Below, one piece after another: positions 26,740-56,522 of a DNA stretch of 64,000 bases. How positions within the stretch are numbered: position 1 is the first letter of the stretch; every line of letters begins with the position of its first letter. This DNA comes from Microlunatus flavus (GTDB lineage Bacteria > Actinomycetota > Actinomycetes > Propionibacteriales > Propionibacteriaceae), in contig NZ_FOFA01000007.1 in the NCBI RefSeq assembly GCF_900110855.1, positions 1 through 64,000 on the forward strand. Reading direction: 5' to 3'. The notes below the pieces were generated by a model. That model saw only the letters and a list, made by a program, of their open reading frames with translations. It searched no databases and had not been told where the DNA came from. Position numbers and translations under genes: made by a program.

Positions 26740-27212
26740 CGGACGCTACGGACGGACGACCAGCCCCGGGCCGAGGATCTGCTCCGCCTGGTCCCGCAGC
26801 ACCGGGTCGGGGACCGTCGGGTCCGCCGCACGAGCTCGCGGCCTGGGCTACGCCCCCTGAGCTCGTCGAAGGGCGTCGCAGAGGTCGGCTGCGGCTCTCA
26901 CTCGGCAAGGGTCGCCAACCCCTCCGGGGCCCTTCGACGAGCTCAGGGGGCGTTCCTCGCGGGCCCTTCGACCAGCTCAGGCCTGACGCGCGGCTCCTCG
27001 GAGCGCTCCGGCCACCCGACGCAGCTCGTCTTGGCCGTCTGCCACGAAGCCCAGGTGGCTGACACCGGCGAAGGCGGGCGTGCGGGCTCCCCTGCGTAGG
27101 GGTCGACGAGCGCGACCGGCCGCGCGACACGCCAGGGCGGCACCGGCCCGACGGGAAGGTACGTGTTCGCCTCGACCCCGGGGCGTACGGACCGCCCTGG
27201 CAGGCTGACGGG
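26740..27212. other. Repeat-bearing gap with probable remains of a minus-strand gene
   Basis: In this 473-base gap, three copies of the dispersed repeat lie at 26855-26873, 26930-26948 and 26964-26981. On the minus strand, 26749 to about 26830 reads as a plausible C-terminus (DPTVPDPVLRDQAEQILGPG then LVVRP and stop). From about 27190 down to 26985, coding-like segments VEANTYLPVGPVPPWRVARP and FAGVSHLGFVADGQDELRRV lie in different frames. This looks like an older gene broken by repeat insertion and frameshifts. The family is not recognised. Confidence 0.35.
26855..26981. repeat. Three dispersed copies of the CCCTGAGC-N2-GTCGAAGGG repeat
   Basis: The forward copy at 26855-26873 faces two reverse copies at 26930-26948 and 26964-26981, so the set forms an inverted arrangement. 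The last copy has one end base changed. Confidence 0.75.
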
Positions 27213-29166: not shown

Positions 29167-29889
29167 CTAGACCGGCAGGGGCCAGCCGACGAACCGTTTC
29201 GGCCGCGGGCGGGCGTACGTGCGGACGCGGGAGGTGGTCAGGCCGAGGCGGACGAGGCCCTCGGCGAGGGTGACCGCCGCGGCGACGCCGTCGACGACCG
29301 GGGCGCCGGTGCGGGCGGCGACGGCCTCGGCCAGCCCGGCCATGCCGCCGCAGCCGAGGACGACGACCTCGGCGTGGTCCTCGCGCACGGCGAGCTCGGC
29401 CTGCGCGGCGATCGCCTCGACCGCCGCGGCCGGGTCGGACTCCAGCTCGAGCACCGCGAGGCCGCTGGCGCGGACGGACGCGCACCGCTGCGCGAGGCCG
29501 GCGAGCAGCAGCCGGTCCTCGATCAGCGGAACGGTGCGGTCCAGCGTCGTCACCACCGAGTAGCGGTGGCCGAGGAGCTGCGCGGTCATGGCCGCCGCCT
29601 CGGTGATGTCGACGACGGGGGAGTCCGCGACCTCCTGCAGCCCCTCACGGCCGTGCTCGCCGTAGCCCGCCTGGACGACCGCGTCGTACGGCTCGGGGTA
29701 GGCGCGCACCGCCTCCATCACCGCGACGGCGGCGACGTAGCTCTCGTAGCTGCCCTCGACCGACTCCGCCCCGAAGGACGGCGTCAGGGCGACGATCTCG
29801 GTCCCGGGCGACGCGGCCGCCCGGGCGGTCGCCGCGATCGTCGCCGTCATCGACTCCGTCGTGTTGACGTTGACGACCAGGATGCGCAC
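29167..29889 (-). CDS. Asp/Glu/hydantoin racemase-family protein (allantoin/hydantoin racemase-like)
   Basis: A 240-aa protein beginning MRILVVNVNTTESMT, the usual opening of hydantoin and allantoin racemases. Known members use two cysteines, one in an ACFGD-type loop and one in an LGCAGM-type loop. Here the second is present (Cys180 in VVLGCGGMAG) but the first is glycine (Gly75 in VVQAGYGEHG). It therefore belongs to a subfamily whose chemistry may differ; arylmalonate decarboxylase also uses a single Cys with Gly at the other site. It starts 4 bases after the NCS1 permease, so it probably acts on the imported ureide or hydantoin. Confidence 0.75.
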   Translation of the reverse strand: MRILVVNVNTTESMTATIAATARAAASPGTEIVALTPSFGAESVEGSYESYVAAVAVMEAVRAYPEPYDAVVQAGYGEHGREGLQEVADSPVVDITEAAAMTAQLLGHRYSVVTTLDRTVPLIEDRLLLAGLAQRCASVRASGLAVLELESDPAAAVEAIAAQAELAVREDHAEVVVLGCGGMAGLAEAVAARTGAPVVDGVAAAVTLAEGLVRLGLTTSRVRTYARPRPKRFVGWPLPV

Positions 29890-29893
29890 GCCG

Positions 29894-31483
29894 CTACTGG
29901 CCCTGCCCGTCGTGGCAGAGCTCCCGGTCCTCGTCGAGGCGGCCGATGACCGGGCGCGAACGCTCCAGCAGCCAGAAGGCGAGGAAGCCGAGCCCGCAGC
30001 CGACGAACCAGCTGAAGTCGCCCGCGTGGGACAGGATCGCGCTCGTCGAGCCGCCCCACACCACGCCGCCGACGAGGACGAGGGCGATGGCGGGCAGGCC
30101 GCCGATGATCACCGAGGCGACCGCGTTCGGGTTGTAGCCGTTGCGGAACCAGTACCGCCCGGACGTCGACATCGTGTACATGTCGTCGACCCACACCCGC
30201 TGCTTCGAGATCAGGTAGTAGCCGGCGATGAGGATCCCGAACAGCGGGCCGATCAGGGCGCCGAGGATGCCGAGGGTGAAGAGGATGCCCTCGCTGGAGT
30301 TGTACCAGTTCCACGGCGTGAGGACGACGGACCCGACGGCCGCGATCATGCCGCCCATACGCCAGCTGATCTTGCGCGGGTTGACGTTGGAGAAGTCGAA
30401 CGCCGGCGAGATGAAGTTGGCGACGATGTTGATTCCGACGGTCGCGATGACGAAGGTCAGGCCGCCCAGCAGGATCGCGAAGCCGGAGTCGATGCGCTGC
30501 ACGGTCTCGATCGGGTCGGTGACCAGCTCGCCGAACACCGGCACGGTGGCCGACGCGGTGACGACGGTGAGGATCGAGAAGAAGAGGAAGTTCAGCGGCA
30601 GGCCGAGCCAGTTGCCCTTGCGGACGCTGCGGAACGTCTTCGCGTAGCGGGAGAAGTCGCCGAAGTTGAGCATCGGCCCGGAGAAGTACGACACCACGGC
30701 CGCGATCGCGGCGATCATGACCGGGATCGAGGCGGCCAGCGACAGGGGCTCGCCCGACGACAGGTTGAGGCTGATGTTGCCGATGCCGGCCTTGGCCACG
30801 AGGTAGACGCAGAGGACGATCATCACCACGTAGACCGCGGGACCGGCCCAGTCGATGAACCGCTTGATCGCCTCCATGCCGCGCCAGAATACGGCGGCCT
30901 GCGCGACCCACAGGATCGCGTAGCAGAGGTAGCCGAGCGGGGACAGGCCGAGGAAGGTCGTCTCGTTCAGCGCCGCCGAGCCCGGCAGGAACTTGAGGAA
31001 GATGATCATCAGCGACGTCGACGCCAGGTAGGTCTGCACGCCGTACCAGGCGATGGCGATGCAGCCGCGGATGATGGCGGGCAGGTTGGCCCCGCGCACG
31101 CCGAACACCGCCCGGTTGATCACAGGGTAGGGGACGCCGGTGATCTGGCTCGGCTTGGCGACCAGGTTGCAGAAGACCATGACGATGCCGATGCCGATCA
31201 CCAGCGAGACGAGCACCTGCCACGACGCGATGCCGAGGCTGAACAGCGCGCCCGCGGTGACGTAGCCGCCGACGGAGTGCACGTCGGACATCCAGAAGGC
31301 GAAGATGTTGTACGCGCTCCAGCTCTGCTTCTTCAGCGGCGCGAGGTCGGTGTTGGCCAGGCGGTCGTCGTAGCCGGGCTTGACGAGCCCGTCGCCGCCG
31401 CCGTGCCCCGCGGGATGCTCCTGGGCGTCGGAGCCGACGTGCTCGGCGAGGTCGGTCAGGCCGTTCTGGGACCGCTGGCTCAT
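29894..31483 (-). CDS. NCS1-family nucleobase/hydantoin/allantoin:cation symporter
   Basis: A 529-aa membrane protein with about 12 hydrophobic segments. Family segments are NIFAFWMSDVHSVGGYVTAG in TM1, YPVINRAVFGVRGANLPAII and IAWYGVQTYLASTSL. Later come GPMLNFGDFSRY and NIVANFISPAFDFSNVNPRK. These match NCS1 transporters such as Mhp1, PucI and allantoin permeases. ATG 31483 has a GGAGGA site 7 bases upstream and is preferred to an in-frame start at 31564. Sharing a transcript with the racemase homologue and lying in a ureide cluster favours allantoin or a hydantoin as substrate. Confidence 0.87.
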   Translation of the reverse strand: MSQRSQNGLTDLAEHVGSDAQEHPAGHGGGDGLVKPGYDDRLANTDLAPLKKQSWSAYNIFAFWMSDVHSVGGYVTAGALFSLGIASWQVLVSLVIGIGIVMVFCNLVAKPSQITGVPYPVINRAVFGVRGANLPAIIRGCIAIAWYGVQTYLASTSLMIIFLKFLPGSAALNETTFLGLSPLGYLCYAILWVAQAAVFWRGMEAIKRFIDWAGPAVYVVMIVLCVYLVAKAGIGNISLNLSSGEPLSLAASIPVMIAAIAAVVSYFSGPMLNFGDFSRYAKTFRSVRKGNWLGLPLNFLFFSILTVVTASATVPVFGELVTDPIETVQRIDSGFAILLGGLTFVIATVGINIVANFISPAFDFSNVNPRKISWRMGGMIAAVGSVVLTPWNWYNSSEGILFTLGILGALIGPLFGILIAGYYLISKQRVWVDDMYTMSTSGRYWFRNGYNPNAVASVIIGGLPAIALVLVGGVVWGGSTSAILSHAGDFSWFVGCGLGFLAFWLLERSRPVIGRLDEDRELCHDGQGQ

Positions 31484-31506
31484 GGAGGCTCCTCCGCGGT
31501 GGCTGT

Positions 31507-31522
31507 CGGAACGTCGGTTCCG
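31507..31522. promoter_or_regulatory. Palindrome CGGAAC-N4-GTTCCG, candidate operator
   Basis: This 16-base perfect inverted repeat lies 24 bases upstream of the NCS1 permease ATG. The same form (CGGAAG-N4-CTTCCG) recurs at 47762-47777 in the xdh/permease divergent region. The binding protein is unknown; the IclR regulator at 52739 is one candidate. Confidence 0.45.
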
Positions 31523-31691
31523 CTGGCTGAGGTGGCCCTCGACGTCGAGCGCCGTCCCGCTCATCCTGAGGAATCTTCATGTCAACGGTGTGAAGACCGT
31601 GCACCAGTTCTGGGTCGAACCCGGCGAGCCGCGGTGCCGAGGGGTAGAGGGGCGGTGGCCGGCGGTGCGTGCCCCGGCAGGTCGCGCACGG

Positions 31692-31720
31692 TTGCTGTTC
31701 CATTCAGCAGAAACTAAAGT
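31692..31720 (+). promoter_or_regulatory. Promoter of the aceB-allE-uricase operon
   Basis: TTGCTG (31692-31697) and TAAAGT (31715-31720) are separated by 17 bases. The predicted start, near 31727, coincides with a CGGAAGTC half-site. Confidence 0.55.
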
Positions 31721-31848
31721 CCACCCAACGGAAGTCGCCCGTTCGCTCCCGACCGACCGTACGGCGGCGGGGCGAGCCCGCGGTGGAGAGTGCTGCCACG
31801 ATGATCCCGACGACCGCCGACGGCTCACGCACCCGAGAGAAGGCCCGT

Positions 31849-33447
31849 ATGACGCTCGAGCTCACCGACCCGACCCCCGTCGCCCGCGCCGAGGAGATCC
31901 TCACGCCGGAGGCGCTGGCCTTCGTCGAGGCGCTGCACGAGCGGTTCGCGGACCGGCGCGACGAGCTGCTGGGCGCGCGGCGGGCCCGTCGCGAGGAGGC
32001 CGCGCGGACCGGCCGCCTGGACTTCCTGCCCGAGACCCGCGAGGTCCGGGAGTCCGACTGGCAGGTGGCCCCCGCGCCGCCCGCGCTGCGGGACCGCCGC
32101 GTGGAGATGACCGGGCCCGCGACCCCGGCCAAGATGGCGATCAACGCGCTGAACTCGGGCGCCAAGGTCTGGCTCGCCGACATGGAGGACGCGAGCTGCC
32201 CGGCGTGGGCCAACGTCGTCGACGCCGTGGCGAACCTGCGCGACGCCGCCCGCGGCACGCTCGCCTTCACCGCCGAGAACGGCCGGGAGTACGCGCTGCG
32301 CACCGACGCCCCCCTCGCGGTCGTCGTCATGCGCCCCCGCGGCTGGCACCTCGACGAGGCCCACGTCCTGCTCGACGGCCGCCGCGGCGTCGGCGCCCTG
32401 GTCGACTTCGGCCTGCACTTCTTCCACCTGGCGCAGCAGCTGCTCGAGAACGGGCAGGGGCCGTACTACTACCTCCCGAAGATGGAGTCGTACCTCGAGG
32501 CGCGGCTGTGGAACGACGTCTTCACCTTCGCCCAGGCCGAGCTCGGGATCCCGTACGGCACGATCCGCGCGACGATGCTGATCGAGACGATCCCGGCGGC
32601 CTTCCAGATGGAGGAGCTCCTCTACGAGCTGCGCGACCACGCCTCCGGGCTCAACGCCGGGCGCTGGGACTACCTCTTCAGCATCATCAAGTACTTCCGC
32701 GACGCGGGGCCGGACTTCGTGCTCGTCGACCGGTCCGACATCACCATGACGGCGCCCTTCATGCGCGCCTACACGGAGCTGCTGGTCAAGACCTGCCACG
32801 CCCGCGGCGCCTTCGCCATGGGCGGGATGGCCGCCGTCATCCCCAACCGCAAGGACCCCGAGGTCAACGCGGCCGCCTTCGCCAAGGTGCGCGCCGACAA
32901 GGAGCGGGAGGCCGGCGACGGCTTCGACGGCTCGTGGGTGGCGCACCCCGACCTCGTGCCGGTGTGCCGGGAGGTCTTCGACGCCGTGCTCGGCGACAAG
33001 CCCAACCAGGTCGACCGCCGCCGCGACGACGTGCAGGTGAGCGCCGAGGAGCTGCTCGACGTGAGCTCGGCGCCGGGCTCCAACACGCTCACCGGGCTGC
33101 GCAACAACCTCTACGTCGCGCTCGCCTACACCGCCGTCTGGCTCTCCGGGAACGGCGCCGTCGCGATCCACAACCTCATGGAGGACGCGGCGACCGCGGA
33201 GATCAGCCGGGCCCAGGTGTGGCAGCTGATCCGCAACGCGACCGTGCTCTCCGACACCGGCGAGCCCGTCACCCGCGACCTGGTCGCCCGCGTGATCGAG
33301 GAGGAGGCCGGCCGCCTGCACGGCGAGGTCGGCGACGCGGCGTTCGAGCGCTACTACCGCCCCGCCCAGCGGCTGATCTCCGACCTCTGCCTGTCCGACG
33401 ACTTCGTCGACTTCCTGACGCTCCCGGCGTACGAGCAGGTGGCATGA
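31849..33447 (+). CDS. aceB: Malate synthase A
   Basis: A 532-aa enzyme that condenses glyoxylate with acetyl-CoA to malate. Signature regions are VEMTGPATPAKMAINALNSG, the acidic DMEDASCPAW, YYYLPKMESYLEARLWNDVF, TIRATMLIETIPAAFQMEE and MGGMAAVIPNRKD. Length matches the A form, not the 720-aa G form. There is no isocitrate lyase nearby, and the gene heads the ureide operon. Its job is therefore probably to use glyoxylate released from ureidoglycolate. ATG 31849 has a GAGAAGG site. The stop overlaps the next ATG. Confidence 0.95.
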   Translation: MTLELTDPTPVARAEEILTPEALAFVEALHERFADRRDELLGARRARREEAARTGRLDFLPETREVRESDWQVAPAPPALRDRRVEMTGPATPAKMAINALNSGAKVWLADMEDASCPAWANVVDAVANLRDAARGTLAFTAENGREYALRTDAPLAVVVMRPRGWHLDEAHVLLDGRRGVGALVDFGLHFFHLAQQLLENGQGPYYYLPKMESYLEARLWNDVFTFAQAELGIPYGTIRATMLIETIPAAFQMEELLYELRDHASGLNAGRWDYLFSIIKYFRDAGPDFVLVDRSDITMTAPFMRAYTELLVKTCHARGAFAMGGMAAVIPNRKDPEVNAAAFAKVRADKEREAGDGFDGSWVAHPDLVPVCREVFDAVLGDKPNQVDRRRDDVQVSAEELLDVSSAPGSNTLTGLRNNLYVALAYTAVWLSGNGAVAIHNLMEDAATAEISRAQVWQLIRNATVLSDTGEPVTRDLVARVIEEEAGRLHGEVGDAAFERYYRPAQRLISDLCLSDDFVDFLTLPAYEQVA

Positions 33448-35755: not shown

Positions 35756-37216
35756 ATGTCGGGCATGACCCAGACCGCGCAGGACCGGCACCCGGTCGAC
35801 GCCGTGCTGCCCGCCCCGCAGATGCTGCTCTACGGGCTGCAGCACGTGCTCAGCATGTACGCGGGCGTCGTGGCGGTGCCGCTGATCATCGGCACGGCGC
35901 TCAAGCTCTCGCCGACCGACATCACCTTCCTGGTCTCGGCCGGGCTGTTCATGTCCGGTGTCGCGACCCTCCTGCAGACCCTCGGGGTCTGGAAGATCGG
36001 GGCTCGGCAGCCGATCGTCCAGGGCACCTCGTTCGCGGCCGTCTCCACGATGCTCGCCGTGGGTCTGGCCGCGGGGGGCGGCCGCGACGGGCTGCGCGCG
36101 ATCTTCGGCGCCCTGCTGCTGGCGGGGGCGATCGCCTTCCTGATCGCGCCCGTCTTCACCCAGCTGCTGCACTTCTTCCCCGAGGTCGTCACCGGCGTCG
36201 TGATCACGGTGATCGGCATCTCGCTGCTGCCCGTGGCCATCCGCTGGGCGGGCGGCGGCACGCCGGGGGTGACGCCGACCTTCGGCGCGCCGACGAACCT
36301 GCTCGTCGCGTTCCTCACCGTCGTGATCATCGTGCTGATCTACCGCTTCGCGCCGCCGTTCTTCAGCCGCGTCGCGATCCTGCTCGGGCTGGTGCTCGGC
36401 ACCGTCGTGGCCATCCCCTTCGGCCTCACCAGCTTCTCCCGCATCGGCGACGCCGGCATCTTCCAGGTCCCGACGCCCTTCCACTTCGGGACGCCGGTCT
36501 TCGCCGTCGGCGCGACGATCTCGATGCTCGTGGTGATGCTGGTGATCATGACCGAGACGACGGCCGACATCCTGGCCATCGGCGAGGTCGTCGGCAAGCC
36601 CGCCGACCGGCAGACGGTGACCAACGGGCTGCGGGCCGACATGGGGGCCACCGCGCTGGCGAGCGTGTTCAACGGCTTCTCTCTGAGCGCCTTCGCCCAG
36701 AACGTCGGCCTCGTCGCGATCACCGGCATCAAGAGCCGCTTCGTCGTCGCCGTCAGCGGCGCGATCCTCGTCGTCCTCGGGCTCTTCCCGGTGCTCGGTG
36801 CGCTGGTCGCGCTCGTGCCGCTGCCCGTGCTCGGCGGCGCGGGGCTGGCCCTGTTCGGCACCGTCGCCGCGAGCGGCATCCGGACCCTGTCGCGGGTCGA
36901 CTTCTCCGGCAACGCGAACATCGTCATCGTGGCCTTCTCGCTCGCCATGGGCCTGATCCCGATCGCCGTGCCGACCTTCTACGACGCGTTCCCGTCCTGG
37001 TTCACGGTGATCTTCGATTCCGGCATCACCGCGGCCGCGCTGACGGCGGTCCTGCTCAACGTCGTCTTCAACATCCTGGGCCGCGAGCCGGCGCCGAGCG
37101 AGGGTCCGATCTCGGCCGAGGGGCCCGCCCCCGCGGCGATCTCGCGAGAGGACGAGGCGAGACTCGACCCCTCGGGTCCCGTGGCGCGCGGGGAACAGCG
37201 GGCGGCGAACCCGTGA
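35756..37216 (+). CDS. NCS2-family purine (urate/xanthine) permease
   Basis: A 486-aa membrane transporter with about 14 hydrophobic segments. It begins HPVDAVLPAPQMLLYGLQHVLSMYAGVVAVPLIIG, the NCS2/NAT opening. Other family segments are QPIVQGTSFAAVS, MTETTADILAIGEVVGKPAD and the NAT-motif region with SAFAQNVGLVAITGIKSR. The urate/xanthine subgroup is favoured by its place directly before uraH and uricase. ATG 35756 has a GAGAGGT site. A second NCS2 protein with a fused domain is at 47915, so two purine importers are encoded. Confidence 0.9.
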   Translation: MSGMTQTAQDRHPVDAVLPAPQMLLYGLQHVLSMYAGVVAVPLIIGTALKLSPTDITFLVSAGLFMSGVATLLQTLGVWKIGARQPIVQGTSFAAVSTMLAVGLAAGGGRDGLRAIFGALLLAGAIAFLIAPVFTQLLHFFPEVVTGVVITVIGISLLPVAIRWAGGGTPGVTPTFGAPTNLLVAFLTVVIIVLIYRFAPPFFSRVAILLGLVLGTVVAIPFGLTSFSRIGDAGIFQVPTPFHFGTPVFAVGATISMLVVMLVIMTETTADILAIGEVVGKPADRQTVTNGLRADMGATALASVFNGFSLSAFAQNVGLVAITGIKSRFVVAVSGAILVVLGLFPVLGALVALVPLPVLGGAGLALFGTVAASGIRTLSRVDFSGNANIVIVAFSLAMGLIPIAVPTFYDAFPSWFTVIFDSGITAAALTAVLLNVVFNILGREPAPSEGPISAEGPAPAAISREDEARLDPSGPVARGEQRAANP

Positions 37217-37247: not shown

Positions 37248-37574
37248 ATGAGCTTCGTGACCGCGCACGTGCTCGACGCGAGCGCCGGCAGGCCGGCCAC
37301 CGGGGTCGCCGTGACGCTGTCCGACGCGTCGGGAGGCGTGCTCGCCGAGGCCGTGACGAACGACGACGGCCGGGTGACCGACCTCGGGCCCGACGCGCTC
37401 GAGCCCGGGACGTACGAGGTGCGGTTCGCCAGCGGCGCCCACTTCGCCGCGCAGGGCGTCGCGTGCTTCCACCCGTACGTGCCCGTCGTCTTCACCGTCG
37501 AGGCCGGCCAGGCGCACTACCACGTGCCCCTGCTGCTGAGCCCGTTCGCCTACACGACCTACCGCGGCAGCTGA
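37248..37574 (+). CDS. uraH: 5-hydroxyisourate hydrolase
   Basis: A 108-aa transthyretin-like enzyme that opens 5-hydroxyisourate, the uricase product, to OHCU. It has the N-terminal TAHVLDASAGRPATG and the diagnostic C-terminal YRGS. HFAAQGVACFHPYVPVVFTV is the central segment, and the family's active-site His and Arg residues are visible (HVLD, HFAA..FHPY, YRGS). It is 31 bases after the permease and 57 before uricase, in one operon. There is no signal peptide, so it is cytosolic. Confidence 0.95.
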   Translation: MSFVTAHVLDASAGRPATGVAVTLSDASGGVLAEAVTNDDGRVTDLGPDALEPGTYEVRFASGAHFAAQGVACFHPYVPVVFTVEAGQAHYHVPLLLSPFAYTTYRGS

Positions 37575-37631: not shown

Positions 37632-38522
37632 ATGACCGAGATCCGGCTGACCGCCAACCAGTACGGCAAGGCCGAGAACCGGGTTGTCCGCGTCACGCGC
37701 GACACCGACCGGCACGACCTGGTCGACCTGAACGTGACGTCGCAGCTGCGGGGGGACTTCGACGCGGCGTTCCTCGAGGGCGACAACGCCCACGTCGTCG
37801 CGACGGACACGCAGAAGAACACGATCTTCGCATTCGCCCGGGAGCCGATCAGCTCACCGGAGCAGTTCCTGGTCAAGCTCGCCGACCACTTCACCGGTGA
37901 GTTCGCCTGGGTGAGCGGCGGTCGCTGGGCGGCGGAGGAGTTCGGCTGGTCGCGGATCGGCGACCACGACCACTCCTTCTACCGCAGCTCGCCGGAGACC
38001 CGCACCGCCGTCCTCGTCCGTGACGGCGGCACCGACGCGCTGATCTCGGGCTTCTCCGGCCTGACGGTGATGAAGACGACGCAGTCCGGCTTCGTCGGCT
38101 ACCCGCGCGACCGCTACACGACGCTGCCCGAGACCGAGGACCGCATCCTCGCGACCGACGTCTCGACGCGCTGGCGCTACCGGGCCGACGCGGTCGACGG
38201 CCTCGACTTCGACGCGACGTACGACAGCATCAAGGCGACGATCATGACCACGTTCACGCAGGGCTACTCGAAGGCCCTGCAGCAGACGCTGCACGCGATG
38301 GCGGCCGCGGTCATCGAGGCGCACGACGTCGTCGACGAGATCAAGTTCTCCTGCCCGAACAAGCACCACTTCCTGTCGGACCTGTCGCCGTTCGAGCTGG
38401 ACAACCCGGGCGTCGTCTTCTACGCCGCCGACCGCCCGTACGGGCTCATCGAGGCGACGTTCCAGCGCGAGGGCGCCCCGACGGCCGACGCCGCCTGGGT
38501 CGGGATCGCCGGCTTCTGCTGA
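37632..38522 (+). CDS. uaZ: Uricase (factor-independent urate hydroxylase)
   Basis: A 296-aa tunnelling-fold oxidase that converts urate, O2 and water to 5-hydroxyisourate and H2O2. Recognisable pieces are MTEIRLTANQYGKAENRVVRV, VATDTQKNTIFAFA with the active-site Thr-Asp loop, SGFVGYPRDRYTTLPETEDR, and FSCPNKHHFLSDLSPF. Length is that of the single-domain enzyme, not the PucL fusion. It ends the operon, and a large hairpin follows at 38570. H2O2 made here could need catalase or peroxidase. The broken haem peroxidase upstream is exported and not an obvious partner. Confidence 0.95.
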   Translation: MTEIRLTANQYGKAENRVVRVTRDTDRHDLVDLNVTSQLRGDFDAAFLEGDNAHVVATDTQKNTIFAFAREPISSPEQFLVKLADHFTGEFAWVSGGRWAAEEFGWSRIGDHDHSFYRSSPETRTAVLVRDGGTDALISGFSGLTVMKTTQSGFVGYPRDRYTTLPETEDRILATDVSTRWRYRADAVDGLDFDATYDSIKATIMTTFTQGYSKALQQTLHAMAAAVIEAHDVVDEIKFSCPNKHHFLSDLSPFELDNPGVVFYAADRPYGLIEATFQREGAPTADAAWVGIAGFC

Positions 38523-41209: not shown

Positions 41210-42517
41210 TCAGGTACCGCTCGCGGTGATCAGCCGGCGACCGGCCGACCAGACGCCCGCCACGTCGGCCGGCGTGCCGAGCGCGAAGACGCGGGCGAGG
41301 AGGTCGCTCGCGTCCTTGGCGTGGGCCAGGTTGACCGCCAGCGTGCTGCTGGGCGCCGGCCGCAGCCAGACGGCGTCGAACTCCTTGCCCACGCCCAGGT
41401 CGCCGACGCGGTCGGACAGGCCGAGGGCCTCGGCGCCGGCGCGCGTGGTCAGGTGCAGCAGGTGCACGGGGGACAGCGGTACGCCCTCGGCGCCGAGGAG
41501 CTGCTGCACGAAGTAGGCCTGCAGCCCCTCCTTGACCAGCGAGAACCCGGTGCCGGCCCCGACGTCGCTCCCGAGCGCCACGCCGACGCCGCGCTCGAGG
41601 TGGCGCCGCAGCGGGAACAGCCCGCTGCCGAGCGCCGCGTTGCTCGTCGGGCAGTGCGCGACCCACGCGCGGGCGTCGGCGAGGACGTCGAGCTCGTGGT
41701 CGGTGGGGTGCACGTTGTGCGCGAGCACGGTGCGGGGACCGACGAGGCCGTGGTGGGCGTACGTGTCGAGGTAGTGGCGCCGTTCCGGGAACAGCGCGCG
41801 AACCTCCTCGACCTCGGCGCCGTTCTCGTTGACGTGCGACGTGAGGAACAGGCCGTCCGCCGCGTCGAGGAGCTCGGCGCACACGTCGAGCAGCGGTTCG
41901 GAGGCCGAGAGCGAGAAGCGCGGGGTGACCGCGTACCGCAACCGGTCCTGCCCGTGCCACCGCTCGATGAGCTTGCGCCCCTCGGACAGCGCGACCTCGG
42001 GCGTGGTCAGCAGCTCGTCGCGCAGGATGCGGTCGCTCACCACCTGCCCGGCGGTGATCCGCAGGCCGCGCCGCTCGGCCGCCGTGAACAGGGTGTCGAC
42101 GGCGTCGGCGAAGTGCGAGCCGAAGACGAGCGCGGTCGTCGTCCCCGCCGCGACGAGCCCGTCGAGGAACTCCTCGGCGACCACGGCCGCGTACGCGTTG
42201 TCGGCCAGTCGCGCCTCCTCCGGCAGCGCGCAGTCACGGAGCCAGTCGAGCAGCGGCATGCCCAGCCCGCCGATCGCGCGGACCTGCGGGTAGTGCACGT
42301 GGGTGTCGACGAACCCCGGCAGCAGCACGCCGTCACGCAGGTCGACGGTGTCCTCGTCGGGGTGGGACCGGCGGAGGTCGGCGTACGGGCCGCGCTCGAC
42401 GACGCGACCGTCGCGCACGAGCAGGCCGGCGTCGTCGTCGGCGCGGAGGGCGGCGGAGGGTTCGGTCGTGAAGGGGTTCGCGGCGACGTCGACGACCAGG
42501 GCGCGGTAGAGGGTCAT
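41210..42517 (-). CDS. guaD: Guanine deaminase
   Basis: A 435-aa amidohydrolase that converts guanine to xanthine. The metal site HxH is in [40 protein letters not shown] and the metal-binding Asp in [15 protein letters not shown] are all present, as in the zinc-dependent ATZ/TRZ-type guanine deaminases. It is the last gene of the xdhA-xdhB-xdhC-guaD operon, and its ATG overlaps the xdhC stop. It supplies xanthine for the dehydrogenase in the same transcript. Confidence 0.93.
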
Positions 42518-43583
42518 GCGCCCGTCCCCCTCGAGCCGTGCGACGCGGTGGTCGGGTGGACGCCAACCCCTTCGGGGCCCTTCGACGAGCTCAGGGAGCG
42601 TTCTCGGCCCTTCGACGAGCTCAGGGAGCGTTCACGGCCCTTCGACGAGCTCAGGGAGCGTTCGTGGCCCTTCGACGAGCTCAGGGAGCGTTCGTGGCCC
42701 TTCGGTGAGCTCAGGGAGCGATCCTGGCCCTTCGGTGAGCTCAGGGAGCGTTCCCGGCCCTTCGGTGAGCTCAGGGAGCGTTCCTCGCGATCGGCGGTCA
42801 GGGTCTGCAGGAGGGCGGCGGCGACGCTGACGGCGATGACCGCCGGGTCCTTACCGGTGATGCCGGGCAGGCCGATGGGCGAGGTGATGCGGGCGAGCGC
42901 GGCCTCGTCGTGGCCCTCGGCGAGGAGGTTGCGACGGAACCTGGCCCACTTGGCGCTCGACCCGATCAGCCCGACGCTGCCGAGCCCGGGGAGCCGGAGC
43001 GCCGCGTCGCAGAGGGCGAAGTCCTCGGCGTGGTCGTGCGTCATGACGAGCACGTGCGCGCCGCGGGGGAGGCGTTCGAGGACGGTCTCGCCCACCAGTC
43101 TGCGGTGCACGGTGACGTCGGCGACGCCCTCCGTCACGTCCGCGAGGCGCAGCGGGTCGAGCTCCTCGGTCCGCGAGTCGACCAGGTGCAGCGACAGCTC
43201 GAGGCGCGACAGGATCCGCGCGAGCTCGTAGCCGACGTGCCCGACGCCGAAGATCGCGACGGTGGGGCGGACGGGGAGGGGTTCGAGGAGCAGGGTCACC
43301 TCGCCGCCGCAGCACTGCCGGCCGTGCTCGGTGCGGGCATGCTCGTTGAGGCGCATCTCGAGCGTCTCCGGCGTCGACGCTTCCGAGACGAGGAGCTCAC
43401 GCGCCCGGTCGACCGCCGTCTGCTCGAGGTTGCCGCCGCCGACGCTGCCCCAGGTGCGCGCCGTGCTCACGACCATCTTGGCGCCGGCGTCACGCGGGGC
43501 GTGCCCGCGCACGGCGGTGACCGTGACGAGGACGCCGGCCTCGCCGTCGCGTCGTAGCTGCTGAACCGCCCCGACCCAGTCGG

Positions 43584-43587
<4 letters not shown>
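42514..43587 (-). CDS. xdhC: XdhC-type accessory protein with a repeat-encoded tail
   Basis: A 357-aa protein that in known systems binds Moco and inserts the sulfurated form into xanthine dehydrogenase. XdhC/CoxI features are [16 protein letters not shown], the [10 protein letters not shown] cysteine pair, and the Rossmann-like [33 protein letters not shown] and [20 protein letters not shown] follow. After about residue 265 come seven copies of a decapeptide like [10 protein letters not shown], then a short tail. These are translated from the 30-bp DNA repeats at 42571-42780. The frame stays open and its TGA overlaps the guaD ATG, so the tail is probably made. Confidence 0.88.
42571..42780. 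repeat. Seven 30-bp tandem repeats inside xdhC
   Basis: Seven units start at 42571, 42601, 42631, 42661, 42691, 42721 and 42751, each containing the core CCCTTCG-N4-GCTCAGGG followed by AGCG. The first four units read CGACGA at the variable place and the last three CGGTGA. The period is a multiple of three, so each unit encodes ten residues on the minus strand. Confidence 0.95.
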
Positions 43588-46045
<2,458 letters not shown>

Positions 46046-46049
<4 letters not shown>

Positions 46050-47581
46050 CGGGACGCTCCGTCCGTCTGCTGCTCGCTGACCAGCTTGAGCAGGCTCTGG
46101 CGCAGCATCGCCCGCCGGTAGCGGGCCGACGCGCGGTGGTCGTCGAGCGGCGTGCCCTCGCTCCCGAGCGCCGCGGCCGCCTCGGCCGCCCCCTCGGGGG
46201 TCCAGGGTCGGCCGACGAGCGCGTCCTCGGTGGTCCGGGCGCGGACCGGCGTCGCCGCCACGCCGCCGAGGCCGATGCGGGCCTGGGTGACCACGCTCCC
46301 TGAGCCTGTCGAAGGGCTGTCGAGCGTCAGCGCGAACGCCACGGACACGCTCGAGATGTCGTCGAACCTGCGCTTGGCGATCTTGTGGAACGCGACGAGC
46401 GGCGCGAGCGGCTTGGGGATGATCACGGACTTGATCAGCTCGTCGGGCCGCCGGACGGAGGCGCGGTAGCCGGTGAAGTAGTCGGCCAGCGCGACGCGGT
46501 GCTCGCAGCGCCGGGAGGCGAGCACGACCTGGGCGTCCAGGGCCAGCAGCACCGGCATGCTGTCGCCGATCGGGCTCGCGGTGCCCAGGTTGCCGCCGAA
46601 GGTCGCCGCGTTGCGGATCAGCCGCGACGCGAACTGCGGGAACAGCTCGGCCAGCAGCGGCACGCGGCCGTCGAGCCGACGCTCGACCTCGGTGAGGGTG
46701 AGCGAGGCACCGATCTCGAACGCCTCGTCCGTCTCGACGAGGCTGCGCAGCTCGGGAAGACGGTCGAGCGCGACGGTCAGACCCGTACGGCTGTGGCGCA
46801 GGTTGAGCTCGACGCCCCAGTCGGTGGAGCCGCCGAGCAGCGTGGCGTCGGGGTGCTCGGCCAGCAGCCCGAGCGCCTCGACCAGCGTCCCCGGGCGGAC
46901 GAAGCTCCCCTGCGGGCTGGAGGTCCGGGTCGGACGCGCGGCGGGCGCCGCGGTCCGGGTGCGCGTGAGCAGCGCGTCCCCGTCGACGGGCGTGCCGAGC
47001 GCGTACGCGGCGTCGCGGATCGGGCGGTAGCCCGTGCAGCGGCACAGGTTGCCGCTCAGCGCGTGCAGGTCGAAGCCGTTCGGGCCGTGCTCGTGAGCCG
47101 GCTCCTGACCGTCGGCGGCGGGGGAGCGGTCGCCCCGGTAGTACTCGGCGGCCATCGAGCAGACGAAGCCGGGCGTGCAGTAGCCGCACTGCGACCCGCC
47201 CCGGTCGGCCATCTCGCGCTGGACCGGGTGCAGGGCGTCCGGGCGTCCGAGGCCCTCGGCCGTGAGCACCTCCTGGCCGTCGAGCGCCGCAGCGGGCGCG
47301 AGGCAGGCGTTGACGGAGACCCAGGTGCTGGCGGTGGCGCCGTCGGCGCCCGCCGTGCTGCTGGTCTCGTCGGGACGCAGGACCATGACCGCGCAGGCAC
47401 CGCACTCGCCCTCGGCGCAGCCCTCCTTCGACCCGGTCAGCCCCTCGGCGCGCAGCCAGTCGAGCAGCGTCACGTGGCCGCCGACCTCGCCGAGCGCGCG
47501 TTCCCGGCCGTTCACCACGACCGAGGGCGCGCCCGCCGTGGGTTCGACCACCGAGGGCACCGCCGTCGAGGGCACCGCCAT
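46046..47581 (-). CDS. xdhA: Xanthine dehydrogenase, FeS/FAD subunit
   Basis: A 511-aa subunit with two [2Fe-2S] clusters and FAD. Cys55, Cys60, Cys63 and Cys93 form the plant-type cluster. Cys132, Cys135, Cys180 and Cys182 form the second (QCGYCTPGFVCS, LCRCTGYRPI). The FAD domain opens FVRPGTLVEALGLLAEHPDATLLGG and has RNAATFGGNLGTASPIGD. Residues 422-429 (SPSTGSGS) are encoded by one copy of the dispersed repeat placed in a loop of the C-terminal FAD domain. The start is ATG 47581. It is the first gene of the xdhA-xdhB-xdhC-guaD operon. Confidence 0.94.
46298..46316. repeat. Single dispersed-repeat copy inside xdhA
   Basis: An exact copy of CCCTGAGC-N2-GTCGAAGGG with CT at the variable place, read on the minus strand in frame within the FAD domain. 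Confidence 0.9.
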
Positions 47582-47851: not shown

Positions 47852-47914
47852 CTCCGCAGCCGGTGCGGCGACTCCGTGCAGCGGAGGGCGCGAGCCTGGC
47901 GGAAGGGGCACCCG

Positions 47915-49852
47915 ATGGCCACCACTGCCGCTCTGCCCGAGCGACCGGCGCGCCGCGCCAAGCACCCCGTCGACGAGGTGCTGCCTCCCGTCCAGCTCGC
48001 GGTGTACGGGTTCCAGCACGTCCTCGCCTTCTACGCCGGCGCGGTCGTCGTACCGATCCTGCTCGCCAGCGCGATCGGGCTCGACCAGCGGCAGCTGATC
48101 CACCTGATCAACGCCGACCTCTTCACCTGCGGCATCGCCTCGATCATCCAGTCGGTCGGCTTCTGGAAGGTCGGCGTCAAGCTGCCGCTGCTGCAGGGCG
48201 TGACCTTCACGGCCGTGTCGCCGATGATCGCGATCGGCCTCGCGGCGGGCGGCGGGTCGCAGGGCCTGCTCGTGATCTACGGCGCGGTGATCGTCGCCGG
48301 CCTGTTCACCTTCCTCATCGCCCCGTGGTTCAGCCGGTTGATCAGGTTCTTCCCGCCGGTCGTCACCGGGTCGGTGATCACGATCATCGGGATCGCGCTG
48401 CTCCCGGTCGCCGCCGGTGACGCCGTCGGCGGGGCGGGCCCGACGGCCGACCCGACCAGCCCCAGGAACCTCGCGTACGCCATCGGCACGCTCGCCCTGA
48501 TCGTCGCGATCCAGCGCATCTTCCGCGGGTTCCTCGCCACCGTCGCCGTGCTCGCGGGCCTCGTCGTGGGCACGCTGGTGGCCTGGGTCCTGGGCGACGC
48601 GGACTTCAGCGGGGTGGCCGACTCGGGCTGGGTCGGGCTGACCACGCCGTTCTTCTTCGGCTGGCCCAAGTTCTCGGTCGCCGCGATCATCTCGATGGTC
48701 GTCGTCATGCTGATCACCGCCGTCGAGACCACCGGCGACGTCTTCGCGACCGGCGAGATCGTGGAGAAGCGGATCAAGCGCGACGACATCGCGCGCGCCC
48801 TGCGCGCCGACGGGCTGGCCACGACCATCGGCGGCATCTTCAACTCGTTCCCGTACACCTGCTTCGCCGAGAACGTCGGCCTCGTGCGCCTCACCCGCGT
48901 CAAGAGCCGCTACGTCGTGGCGACCGCCGGAGCGATCATGATCGTCCTCGGCCTGGTCCCCAAGGCCGGTGCGCTCGTCGCCGGCATCCCGCACCCCGTG
49001 CTCGGCGGAGCGGCGCTGGCGATGTTCGCGACGGTCGCGGTGGTGGGCTTCCAGACCCTGTCGCGGGTCGACTTCCACGACCACCGCAACGTGGTGATCG
49101 TCTCGACCGCGGTCGGCCTCGCGCTCTACGTGACCGTGCAGCCCGACGTCGCCAAGGCGGTGCCGTCGTGGGCGCAGATCATCTTCGGCTCGGGCATCAC
49201 GGTCGGCAGCATCGTGGCGATCGGGCTCAACCTGCTCTTCCACCACGTCGGCCGCAGCCGCGGCGCCGCCGTCGCGGGCTCGCCCGGGCGCGACCTCGTC
49301 GGGCTCAACGACGTCAACCAGATGAGCCGCGAGCAGTTCGTCGAGACCTTCGGCGGGCTGTTCCAGGGCCCGCGCTGGGTGGTCGAGCGCGCGTACGACG
49401 AGCGCCCGTTCGCCGACACCCGCGAGCTGCGGCGGGCCTTGCAGGACGCGCTGCTGGTGGCGAGCAAGGACGAGCAGCGCGAGCTCTTCGCCGCCTATCC
49501 CGAGCTCGGCTCCGACGACGTCGCCTCCGGCGGAGCCGGGGCGGGATCGTTCGGCGACCAGTCCGCCCTCGGGCTCACCCGGCTCGACGACGAGGCCCAC
49601 GGGGAGCTCGCCGCCCTGGCGAAGGAGTACCAGGAGCGGTTCGGCTTCCCGCTGATCATCTCCGTGCGCGACCGGGCGTCGTTCGAGCAGATCCTCGAGC
49701 ACGGCCGCCACCGCCTCGACAACTCCCCGACCCAGGAGCACGCGCTGGCGCTCATCGAGATCGCCAGCATCGCGGGTCACCGCTTCGACGACCTCGTCGC
49801 CGACGCGAACCCGATCTACTCCGCCCGCACCCGCGGCCTGGCCGACGCCTGA
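47915..49852 (+). CDS. NCS2 purine permease fused to an OHCU-decarboxylase (UraD) domain
   Basis: A 645-aa two-part protein. Residues 1 to about 450 form a complete NCS2 permease (HPVDEVLPPVQLAVYGFQHV, METTGDVF-type ETTGDVFATGEIVEKRIKRD, CFAENVGLVRLTRVKSR) with about 14 membrane segments. From about 462 to 625 it continues as a UraD-like domain (LNDVNQMSREQFVETFGGLF, RPFADTRELRRAL, ERFGFPLIISV, ALALIEIASIAGHRFDDLV). UraD decarboxylates OHCU to (S)-allantoin. Compared by eye with Bacillus PucL, the catalytic His is Tyr528 (AAYPELG) and the Glu is Asp548 (GDQSALG). ATG 47915 has a GGAAGGGG site. Transport of urate or xanthine is likely; decarboxylase activity is uncertain. Confidence 0.9.
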   Translation: MATTAALPERPARRAKHPVDEVLPPVQLAVYGFQHVLAFYAGAVVVPILLASAIGLDQRQLIHLINADLFTCGIASIIQSVGFWKVGVKLPLLQGVTFTAVSPMIAIGLAAGGGSQGLLVIYGAVIVAGLFTFLIAPWFSRLIRFFPPVVTGSVITIIGIALLPVAAGDAVGGAGPTADPTSPRNLAYAIGTLALIVAIQRIFRGFLATVAVLAGLVVGTLVAWVLGDADFSGVADSGWVGLTTPFFFGWPKFSVAAIISMVVVMLITAVETTGDVFATGEIVEKRIKRDDIARALRADGLATTIGGIFNSFPYTCFAENVGLVRLTRVKSRYVVATAGAIMIVLGLVPKAGALVAGIPHPVLGGAALAMFATVAVVGFQTLSRVDFHDHRNVVIVSTAVGLALYVTVQPDVAKAVPSWAQIIFGSGITVGSIVAIGLNLLFHHVGRSRGAAVAGSPGRDLVGLNDVNQMSREQFVETFGGLFQGPRWVVERAYDERPFADTRELRRALQDALLVASKDEQRELFAAYPELGSDDVASGGAGAGSFGDQSALGLTRLDDEAHGELAALAKEYQERFGFPLIISVRDRASFEQILEHGRHRLDNSPTQEHALALIEIASIAGHRFDDLVADANPIYSARTRGLADA

Positions 49853-49903: not shown

Positions 49904-51490
49904 TCAGGCCTCGCCGCGGCGGAGGAGGCGGCCGTGCGGGGTGCCGTCGAGGTCGACGGCCTCGCCGCGGAGGTACGTACGCCGCACGCGGCCGGAGAGG
50001 GCGCGGCCCTGGTAGGGCGTGATCGGGTTCTTGTGGTGGAGCTTGCCCGCGTCGACGACGAAGGCGTCGTCCGGCGCGAACACGGCCAGGTCGGCGTCGT
50101 GGCCGAGGGCGATCGACCCCTTGGACCGCAGCCCGACGCGCTTCGCGGGCCGTGTGGCCATCCAGTCGACGACCCGCTCGAGGCCGACGCCCCGCTTGCG
50201 CGCCTCGGTCCAGATCAGCGAGAGCCCGAGCTGGAGGGAGGAGATGCCGCCCCAGGCGACGCCGAAGTCGCCGTTCTCGAGGTCCTTGAGGTCGAGGGTC
50301 GAGGGGGAGTGGTCGGAGACGACGAAGTCGATCGTTCCGTCGAGCAGCCCGTCCCACAGGGCCTCGCGGTTGCTCGCCTCGCGCACCGGCGGGCAGCACT
50401 TGAAGGCGGTCGCGCCGTCGGGCACCTCCTCGGCGAGCAGCGTCAGGTAGTGCGGGCAGGTCTCCACGGTCAGGTCGACGCCGTCGCGCTTGGCCGTGGC
50501 GATCATGGGCAGCGCGTCGGACGACGACAGGTGCAGCAGGTGCGCCTTGGCGCCGGTCCAGCGGGCGCGCTCGATGACCTCGGCGATGGCGAGGCTCTCC
50601 GCGCCGCGGGGACGTGAGGCGAGGAACGACGCGTACACGTCGCCCCTGGGGTGCGGGGCGCGGTCGATCGCGCGGGAGTCCTCGGCGTGCACGATCATCA
50701 GCGAGTCGAACGACCGGAGCACGGCGAGGTCCTGCTCCAGCTCGTCGGCCTCGAGGTGCGGGAACTCGTCGACGCCGGAGTGCAGCAGGAAGCACTTGAA
50801 CCCGAAGACGCCGTCGTCGTGCAGCGCGCGCAGGTGCGGCGCGTTGCCCGGCACGGCCCCGCCCCAGAAGCCCACGTCGACGAACACCTGACCGTCGGCG
50901 AACAGCCGCTTGTACTCCAGCGCGGGCGCGTTGACCGTGGCCGGGATCGAGTTCAGCGGCATGTCGACCAGCGTCGTGACGCCGCCGGCCGCCGCTGCGC
51001 GGGTCGCCGAGGCGAACCCCTCCCAGGTCGTCCGGCCCGGCTCGTTGATGTGCACGTGGGTGTCGACGAGGCCCGGCAGCAGCACCTCGTCGTCGGCGAG
51101 CTCGACGAGCGTACGGGCGGGCAGGCCGGCGCCGAGCGGTTCGATGGCGACGACCGTGCCGTCGCGCACCCCGATCTCGCGGGCGACGATCCCCGCTGTG
51201 GTCAGGATGCGGCGGCCGCGGACCACCAGGTCGAGCTCCCGCGAACCGCCGGCGCGTGCGGCCCGGGTTCCCGCGGCGGGGCCGTCGGGGACGGCATGCT
51301 CCTGCCGGTAGGCCGTGATGAGGCCCCGGATCCGCTCCGGGTCGTTGACCCGGTCCGCCACCGTCCGGGCGTCGTCGTCGGCGGCGCTGACGGCGGCCTC
51401 GACCGCGTCCGGCCTCGTGGCCGAGCGGGCCGACCCCTCCCGGGCCACCGCCGTCGGGTCGAGGTCCTCGGGGTCGTGCTGACGGGTCAC
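49904..51490 (-). CDS. allB: Allantoinase
   Basis: A 528-aa cyclic amidohydrolase that opens (S)-allantoin to allantoate. The metal site is LLPGLVDTHVHINEPGRTTWEG, the carbamylated Lys is in GFKCFLLHSG, and His ligands are in IVHAEDSR and LLHLSSSDA. The final Asp is in DFVVSDHSPS. The catalytic part starts near residue 80. An unusual 75-residue acidic N-terminal region (ending ERIRGLITAYRQEHAVP) precedes it and is not part of the usual 450-residue enzyme. GTG 51490 overlaps the glycerate-kinase stop. An ATG-less long ORF extension upstream is antisense shadow. Confidence 0.92.
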   Translation of the reverse strand: MTRQHDPEDLDPTAVAREGSARSATRPDAVEAAVSAADDDARTVADRVNDPERIRGLITAYRQEHAVPDGPAAGTRAARAGGSRELDLVVRGRRILTTAGIVAREIGVRDGTVVAIEPLGAGLPARTLVELADDEVLLPGLVDTHVHINEPGRTTWEGFASATRAAAAGGVTTLVDMPLNSIPATVNAPALEYKRLFADGQVFVDVGFWGGAVPGNAPHLRALHDDGVFGFKCFLLHSGVDEFPHLEADELEQDLAVLRSFDSLMIVHAEDSRAIDRAPHPRGDVYASFLASRPRGAESLAIAEVIERARWTGAKAHLLHLSSSDALPMIATAKRDGVDLTVETCPHYLTLLAEEVPDGATAFKCCPPVREASNREALWDGLLDGTIDFVVSDHSPSTLDLKDLENGDFGVAWGGISSLQLGLSLIWTEARKRGVGLERVVDWMATRPAKRVGLRSKGSIALGHDADLAVFAPDDAFVVDAGKLHHKNPITPYQGRALSGRVRRTYLRGEAVDLDGTPHGRLLRRGEA

Positions 51491-56150: not shown

Positions 56151-56522
56151 GGAACGCTCCTGAGCCTGTCGAAGGGCTCCAGAGGAACGCTCCTGAGCCT
56201 GTCGAAGGGCTCCAGAGAAACGCTCCCTGAGCTCGTCGAAGGGCCCCGGCTGAACGCTCCCTGAGCTCGTCGAAGGGCCCCGGAGGGGTCAGCGTTCCCC
56301 TCCCGCAGCCGGAGAAGCCAACCTCTTCGAGGCCCTTCGACAAGCTCAGGGGGCGTTCTCGAGGCCCTTCGGCAAGCTCAGGGGGCGTTCTCGAGGCCCT
56401 TCGACAAGCTCAGGGGGCGTTCTCGAGGCCCTTCGGCAAGCTCAGGGGGCGTTCTCGAGGCCCTTCGACAAGCTCAGGGGGCGTTCTCGAGGCCCTTCGA
56501 CAAGCTCAGGGGGCGTTCTCGC
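56151..56522. repeat. Inverted pair of tandem-repeat arrays between rsmI and tatD
   Basis: Four forward units (starting 56151, 56184, 56217 and 56251) contain CCTGAGC-N2-GTCGAAGGG. They face six reverse units of exactly 32 bp (starting 56331, 56363, 56395, 56427, 56459 and 56491) containing CCCTTCG-N4-GCTCAGGGGG. A unique core of about 45 bases separates them. The two halves can pair, so a very large hairpin or cruciform is possible. No gene is supported in it; the tatD start follows at 56557. Confidence 0.95.

Follow-up and report, generated by a model that had tools for sequence, protein, structure and literature searches.

What does a domain of the UraD family (OHCU decarboxylase) do at the end of a purine importer? 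The question arises from a single gene in the purine cluster of the window, by which we mean the whole stretch of 64,000 nucleotides that was analysed. A first-pass annotation had described this gene as one uninterrupted frame of 645 codons, with an NCS2 permease followed by a UraD-like domain, and had proposed that it tethers the third uricolytic step to the importer in a urate-import metabolon, or that the soluble domain regulates transport. The gene and its mapped features are as follows.

47915..49852, + strand: NCS2/NAT purine permease fused to a degenerate UraD (OHCU decarboxylase) domain, 645 codons plus stop
47901..47908, + strand: GGAAGGGG, ribosome-binding-like site before the ATG at 47915, read in the sequence; putative role
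47993..49147, + strand: Xan_ur_permease domain PF00860, residues 27-411 (Pfam 355.7 bits, cut-off 27)
48869..48898, + strand: NAT signature ENVGLVRLTR, residues 319-328 (motif matched in the translation)
49250..49315, + strand: linker of ~20 residues, about residues 446-467, after the last hydrophobic stretch
49316..49786, + strand: UraD-family domain PF09349, residues 468-624, active-site residues replaced (132.9 bits, cut-off 24)
49496..49498, + strand: TAT, Tyr528, at the position of the UraD catalytic His (structure alignments)
49556..49558, + strand: GAC, Asp548, at the position of the Glu of SxxEQ (structure alignments)
49781..49783, + strand: CGC, Arg623, conserved UraD pocket Arg, kept
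49799..49816, + strand: ADANPI tail motif, residues 629-634, past the end of the Pfam UraD domain

Pfam and NCBIfam models, together with a reading of the frame, confirmed the two-domain architecture. The frame 47915-49852 (+) is open throughout, with no stop between permease and UraD domain, and the internal ATG (Met470, 49322) shows no clear Shine-Dalgarno-like run in the 25 bases upstream, as inspected by eye. The same single frame occurs in many genomes, and an assembly error, chance or an internal start is ruled out as the origin of the fusion. The permease part is complete: PF00860 is covered from profile position 2 to 388 of 389, and the NCBIfam xanthine permease model TIGR03173 scores 522.8 bits (cut-off 414.15). 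It also conforms to the NAT signature, defined as [QEP]-N-x-G-xxxx-T-[GRK] (PMC5972032, in part), and carries a TM8-like ETTGD motif. Hydropathy gives merged hydrophobic stretches up to residue 446, in which the 14 transmembrane segments typical of NCS2/NAT carriers do not stand out separately. The C-terminal part matches both PF09349 and TIGR03164 (UHCUDC, NCBIfam; 109.6 bits, cut-off 96.25) and retains the pocket arginine, but lacks the catalytic histidine and glutamate of UraD; in two of three other fusions scanned, TIGR03164 falls below its cut-off.

We take His67, Glu87 and Arg161 to be the active residues of zebrafish UraD, and His, Glu and Arg are presumably the active residues of the family, as known from the zebrafish and Arabidopsis structures. 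In alignments of the window's fused domain to solved structures, the HP motif of UraD becomes YP and SxxEQ becomes SFGDQ. To count these replacements more widely, we gathered fused domains with PF09349 from 147 genomes of the order and from a class sample, with a protein query from a phylum sample, with a sequence pattern from GTDB species genomes (best 80 of 215 relatives), and from two plasmid records. Some Kribbella genomes were common to the order sample and the pattern scan, and duplicates were therefore dropped before counting, which reduced 140 fused rows to 113, or to 109 under a stricter rule. The scan pattern, [KRH]FG[FM]PL.., holds no active-site residue, yet favours this fusion lineage, and a permease fusion with an intact histidine could exist in an unsampled one.

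No fused domain carries the histidine: among the 113 distinct sequences, the position is Tyr in 99 and Phe in 14 (96 and 13 of 109 after stricter duplicate removal). The glutamate position is Asp in 106 and Glu in 7, hence acidic throughout, although a possible one-position shift of the alignment makes this column less certain in the group without uricase. The pocket arginine is present in 112 of 113, the remaining domain being masked at this position, and the pocket proline in 100; the 13 that have lost the proline include all six genomes without detected uricase, whose fused domains lack the pocket glutamine of SxxEQ as well. This glutamine is replaced by His in 25 of 37 fusion loci with an adjacent uricase (best 80 of 215 relatives). 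The ADANPI tail, in a loose form, is found in 104 of the 113; the deep fusions of groups f58 and f60 lack it.

UraDs that are not fused to this permease are different. Of 134 distinct sequences, 132 have the histidine, L070 has Tyr and the last is a fragment; in the pattern-scan set, one of 39 such rows (L137_S5950) is a fragment of a UraD found in two pieces. The window genome itself encodes a stand-alone UraD on another contig (C16:634142, L001) with HP and EQ intact. Among the matches listed for the class sample, 31 long-frame PF09349 stretches were examined, of which four are permease fusions; the other 27 comprise 25 with His, L070 with Tyr and L072, a short match that was left unscored. 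L070, from genome G404, keeps the glutamate and represents a second, separate loss of the histidine in a UraD relative outside the permease fusions. Taken from these alignments, the fused domain appears to be a pseudoenzyme, that is, a member of the UraD fold family that has lost its catalytic histidine.

The domain is a constant feature of its permease lineage. With the permease part as query, the 147 order genomes yielded 43 matches at 68-100% identity, every one of them a fusion; the next-best permeases of this sample are 54% identical and have no PF09349 match in frame. In a separate scan, both domains lay in one frame at 80 of 80 loci (best 80 of 215 relatives). The PF00860-PF09349 order, whose spread the first-pass annotation had left to be mapped, is present in many actinobacteria: among these best 80 of 215, the fusion was found in Kribbella, Nocardioides, Phycicoccus, Pedococcus, Geodermatophilus, Pseudonocardia, Rhodococcus, Mycolicibacterium and Flexivirga, as well as in three genomes of the alphaproteobacterium Labrys (L174, L176, L177), which probably received it by gene transfer. 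All three Labrys stretches also hold a xanthine dehydrogenase large subunit, and the Labrys genomes have an intact-residue UraD in a 477-aa frame. In the window's own genus, G001, G012 and G113 have uricase and UraD and lack the close permease, and G050 has none of these, so the fusion gene seems to be gained and lost as a unit.

Plasmids carry the fusion too, and their records contain a warning for annotation, since one of the two copies is named uraD and the other a solute carrier family 23 protein. The former, on a Rubrobacter radiotolerans plasmid, is probably misnamed. The latter, on a Rhodococcus qingshengii plasmid, is followed by uraD, uraH and pucL, and the UraD directly behind the fusion has intact residues. 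Two further observations concern the diversity of UraD-containing frames. Genome G464 (group f58) has two different NCS2-UraD fusions (L089 and L090). In the class sample, among the matches listed, the UraD matches L059-L066 and L230-L240 form the last part of permease-free frames of ~500-1300 codons, which may represent further UraD fusions in some cases and just GC-rich open frames in others.

For the origin of the fusion, we built a tree of 81 UraD domains with the active-site columns left out. It comprised 51 fused representatives (<85% identity), one fusion from a Rhodococcus plasmid and a selection of 29 other UraDs, of which 26 came from loci and three from solved structures; L180, which has a masked stretch, was excluded. 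All 52 fused rows form one clade (support 100/99), which sits among UraDs encoded by separate genes in group f58 and in Deinococcus. A 100/100 split divides all of these from a further 16 rows, including the stand-alone UraD of the window genome, which passes TIGR03180. Separate, adjoining permease and uraD genes in the same permease-then-UraD order are found in Deinococcus sp. QL22 (with a 4-base overlap), Priestia and two f58 genomes, and the neighbouring but separate NCS2 and uraD genes Rxyl_2840/2841 have been tabulated before (Table 2 of PMC4016543, in part). His and Glu are intact in the four unfused pairs that we looked at, and such an adjoining pair looks like the state before fusion. 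The fusion architecture is old and conserved rather than a local peculiarity. The course that we favour is a single, early fusion of the UraD domain in these bacteria, followed by loss of the catalytic histidine, which would have turned the domain into a lasting accessory part of one permease lineage.

Does the fused domain nevertheless depend on urate breakdown? In the window, the fusion lies in a purine cluster with the following other members.

35756..37216, + strand: second NCS2 permease, no UraD domain (Pfam)
37248..37574, + strand: HIU hydrolase (PF00576; Pfam)
37632..38522, + strand: uricase (PF01014; Pfam)
41210: amidohydrolase (Pfam scan)
42514..43530, - strand: XdhC-like factor (range scanned)
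43584..45983, - strand: xanthine dehydrogenase large (molybdopterin) subunit (range scanned; start approximate)
46046..47581, - strand: xanthine dehydrogenase FeS/FAD subunit, divergent from the fusion (Pfam)
49904..51241, - strand: amidohydrolase PF01979, probably allantoinase (name taken from the cluster context)
51487: glycerate kinase
52454: IclR regulator

The domain is thus confined to one of the two NCS2 permeases of the cluster, as the first-pass annotation had stated. The second permease is 50% identical to the fusion permease and has the NAT motif QNVGLVAITG; judged from the two motifs (ENVGLVRLTR and QNVGLVAITG), the pair may divide substrates between them.

Beyond the window, among the 80 fusion loci (best 80 of 215 relatives), the stretch examined around the fusion contains a second UraD in 38, uricase in 37, HIU hydrolase in 37 and the xanthine dehydrogenase large subunit in 48. 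All 35 fusion-bearing genomes of group f2, the window's genome and its sister genome G104 have a second PF09349 match. The remaining fusion genomes of the order sample (G092, G110, G137, G080, G077 and G042) have none, and no uricase, HIU hydrolase or PF20256 xanthine dehydrogenase large subunit was detected in them, as judged by single Pfam models and, for urate oxidases, by the PF01014-type uricase. When 17 window proteins, mostly from the purine cluster, were compared with the 18-19 kb around the fusion in these six genomes, the fusion alone was matched. Ten neighbouring proteins scanned in the six stretches included no purine-catabolic family, and one of the ten belonged to no known family. 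G276 and G404 gave no uricase match, yet both encode HIU hydrolase as well as a UraD whose active-site residues are intact. Because the fusion is retained in six genomes without the detected pathway, the fused domain is not tied to uricolysis. Given that both Pro and Gln have been lost there, its role in these six genomes may be structural only.

The domain is under purifying selection. We estimated dN/dS after excluding pairs with dS of 0 or >=2.5. Between the window and G104, the domain and the permease are almost equal (0.124 and 0.127). In Kribbella, the median is 0.154 for the domain and 0.101 for the permease; the corresponding values are 0.066 and 0.031 for Rhodococcus, 0.197 and 0.117 for Nocardioides, 0.545 and 0.298 for the six genomes lacking a detected uricase, and 0.468 and 0.362 for group f58. 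In each of these five groups, which are those with more than one pair, constraint is thus weaker on the domain than on the permease. In the 13 genomes of group f2 that hold both forms, the median of the intact stand-alone UraD is 0.252, as against 0.109 in the fused domain and 0.105 in the permease, with the fused domain below the stand-alone UraD in 75 of 78 pairs, which share genomes and are hence non-independent. The degenerate domain is thus better conserved than its intact cousin in these 13 genomes and must therefore have a function. The strength of selection is silent on what that function is.

Which function, then, could it be? The fusion, the loss of catalytic residues, the single clade, the purifying selection and the retention without detected uricolysis are all observed here, and no loss of the domain occurred in the order sample. 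On these grounds, the domain probably controls or stabilises the importer and performs no chemistry. By analogy with carriers that bear a regulatory domain, we lean, with modest confidence, towards a non-catalytic UraD-fold accessory domain that controls the transporter of one NCS2 permease lineage in a STAS-like manner. The regulatory role suggested briefly in the first-pass annotation agrees with the findings and stays a candidate.

UraD enzymes are homodimers, NCS2 termini are cytosolic, and SLC26 carriers have a soluble STAS domain at the C-terminus. The NAT carrier UapA is a homodimer as well and is structurally homologous to SLC26 (PMC4837479, in part). We infer from these features how the protein could be built and controlled. 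The importer would be an NCS2 carrier of the xanthine/urate kind with a pseudoenzyme as C-terminal extension, most likely on the cytosolic face. Since both UraD enzymes and NCS2 carriers are homodimers, paired UraD domains could bridge the two carriers of an NCS2 dimer below the membrane. The remaining pocket, with Arg623, mostly Pro and an aromatic residue for His, might then tune transport to a bound cytosolic ligand or to a conformation, in whichever direction. In its simplest form, the mechanism would place a paired accessory domain where STAS sits under SLC26 carriers.

A more specific version of this accessory role is that the pseudo-UraD acts as an allosteric sensor, binds a cytosolic purine or ureide in the former decarboxylase pocket, and in response throttles or opens the importer that carries it. 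We regard this as a tentative possibility, somewhat short of an even chance. The retained arginine, mostly retained proline, aromatic residue and acidic residue might allow a ligand to bind without turnover, and hence sensing. However, the sensor is weakened by the replacement of the pocket glutamine by His in most fusion loci with an adjacent uricase, so that even in loci with the pathway the pocket differs from that of an active UraD. If the sensor reading is true, these proteins would form a new family of nucleobase carriers that regulate themselves and would parallel SLC26-STAS within NCS2; their regulator would be a pathway enzyme that was disabled while its binding site was kept.

Among the alternatives, a purely structural role survives best, although we consider it rather unlikely. 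Here, a pseudo-UraD dimer would help the NCS2 dimer to fold, assemble or remain stable and would bind no ligand, which fits a domain that was never lost from the lineage in the order sample, that persists without detected uricolysis while its pocket residues drift in those genomes, and that tolerates Tyr or Phe at the His position and a variable pocket glutamine. Packing alone, however, need not require the near-invariant arginine and an acidic residue at every glutamate position, and UapA dimerises without any such domain (PMC4837479, in part).

We find it improbable that the domain is a non-catalytic scaffold that recruits uricase, HIU hydrolase and the stand-alone UraD to the membrane. A second UraD, uricase, HIU hydrolase or xanthine dehydrogenase does lie near many of the 80 fusion loci (best 80 of 215), and the genes form an operon in Rhodococcus, but the fusion persists in all six genomes that gave no match to any of these proteins, and 7 of the 12 tree UraDs near a fusion fall in the distant UraD branch. 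Still less credit goes to a new enzyme activity, in which the Tyr/Asp pair would catalyse another reaction on the purine ring or its products: the strong constraint and the kept arginine would suit it, yet Phe replaces Tyr in 14 of 113 domains and thereby removes the hydroxyl.

An active decarboxylase tethered to the importer, the metabolon of the first-pass annotation, is very improbable despite passing the PF09349 and TIGR03164 cut-offs. The catalytic histidine is missing from 113 of 113 domains, with Tyr for His and Asp for Glu in the window, where an intact UraD is encoded elsewhere in the genome. The idea of a metabolon further conflicts with the six genomes that keep the fusion without detected uricase, HIU hydrolase, second UraD or xanthine dehydrogenase large subunit: a tether for the urate step should not be needed where the step is absent. 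Finally, a neutral relic on its way to disappearance is hardly credible, for although active-site residues are lost and constraint is weaker in genomes without uricase, dN/dS is near 0.1 and below that of the intact UraD of the same 13 genomes, and one old clade shows no loss among 43 members.

Several known systems come close to the fusion. With the NCS2/NAT permeases PbuX, PucJ/PucK, UacT, XanQ and UapA it shares PF00860, TIGR03173, the NAT signature and ETTGD, and it adds a C-terminal extension of ~190 residues that contains the UraD-family domain. To the UraDs of zebrafish (2o70), Agrobacterium (Atu2327, 2o8i) and Klebsiella (3o7h) it is related by domain family and by the pocket arginine (58.6 bits to 2o70 and 71.1 to 2o8i); unlike these enzymes, the fused domain lacks the catalytic His and Glu, is part of a membrane protein and is also present where no urate oxidation was detected. 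The membrane part of SLC26/SulP proteins is structurally homologous to NAT proteins (PMC4837479, in part), but the C-terminal domain of the fusion is PF09349 and not STAS, so that the likeness is one of analogy. UraD is part of longer proteins elsewhere, too. Plant TTL joins UraD to HIU hydrolase, with both activities reported (PMC2834698, in part), and the model NF010373 names a UraD fusion with carbamoyl hydrolase; here, in contrast, UraD is joined to a carrier and its active site has degenerated.

The domain order is already visible in public records, and the fusion itself is not new to databases. In the open-licence literature, we found no paper on a pseudoenzyme domain of an NCS2/NAT carrier, on this fusion or on its degenerate active site, and the words 'fusion' and 'decarboxylase' are absent from the main texts of one paper on NAT evolution and one on an NCS2 classifier. 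The NCS2/NAT family ranges from bacterial carriers to the human transporters of vitamin C, and its members are being considered as antimicrobial targets (PMC6308229, in part). A conserved, degenerate UraD on a single carrier lineage offers a clean, testable case of a metabolic enzyme becoming part of a transporter.

Several minor observations concern the remainder of the window. Upstream of the purine cluster, genes for an Asp/Glu/hydantoin racemase, an NCS1 permease and malate synthase (29167-33444) would fit the use of allantoin and glyoxylate. A 350-aa frame at 25687-26736 gives a partial match to animal haem peroxidase alone (PF03098, residues 12-126). A dispersed 17-base repeat, CCTTCGACRAGCTCAGG, occurs at 26856-26981, 42579-42685, 46299-46315 and 56159-56510; it has 129 exact copies in the 4.79 Mb genome as compared to none for a backwards control, several of them in tandem at steps of ~30-35 bases. 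At 42576-42784, the 3' end of the XdhC-like frame contains seven 30-base units with this repeat, so that the predicted protein has a repetitive tail, ERSLSS[SP]KG.
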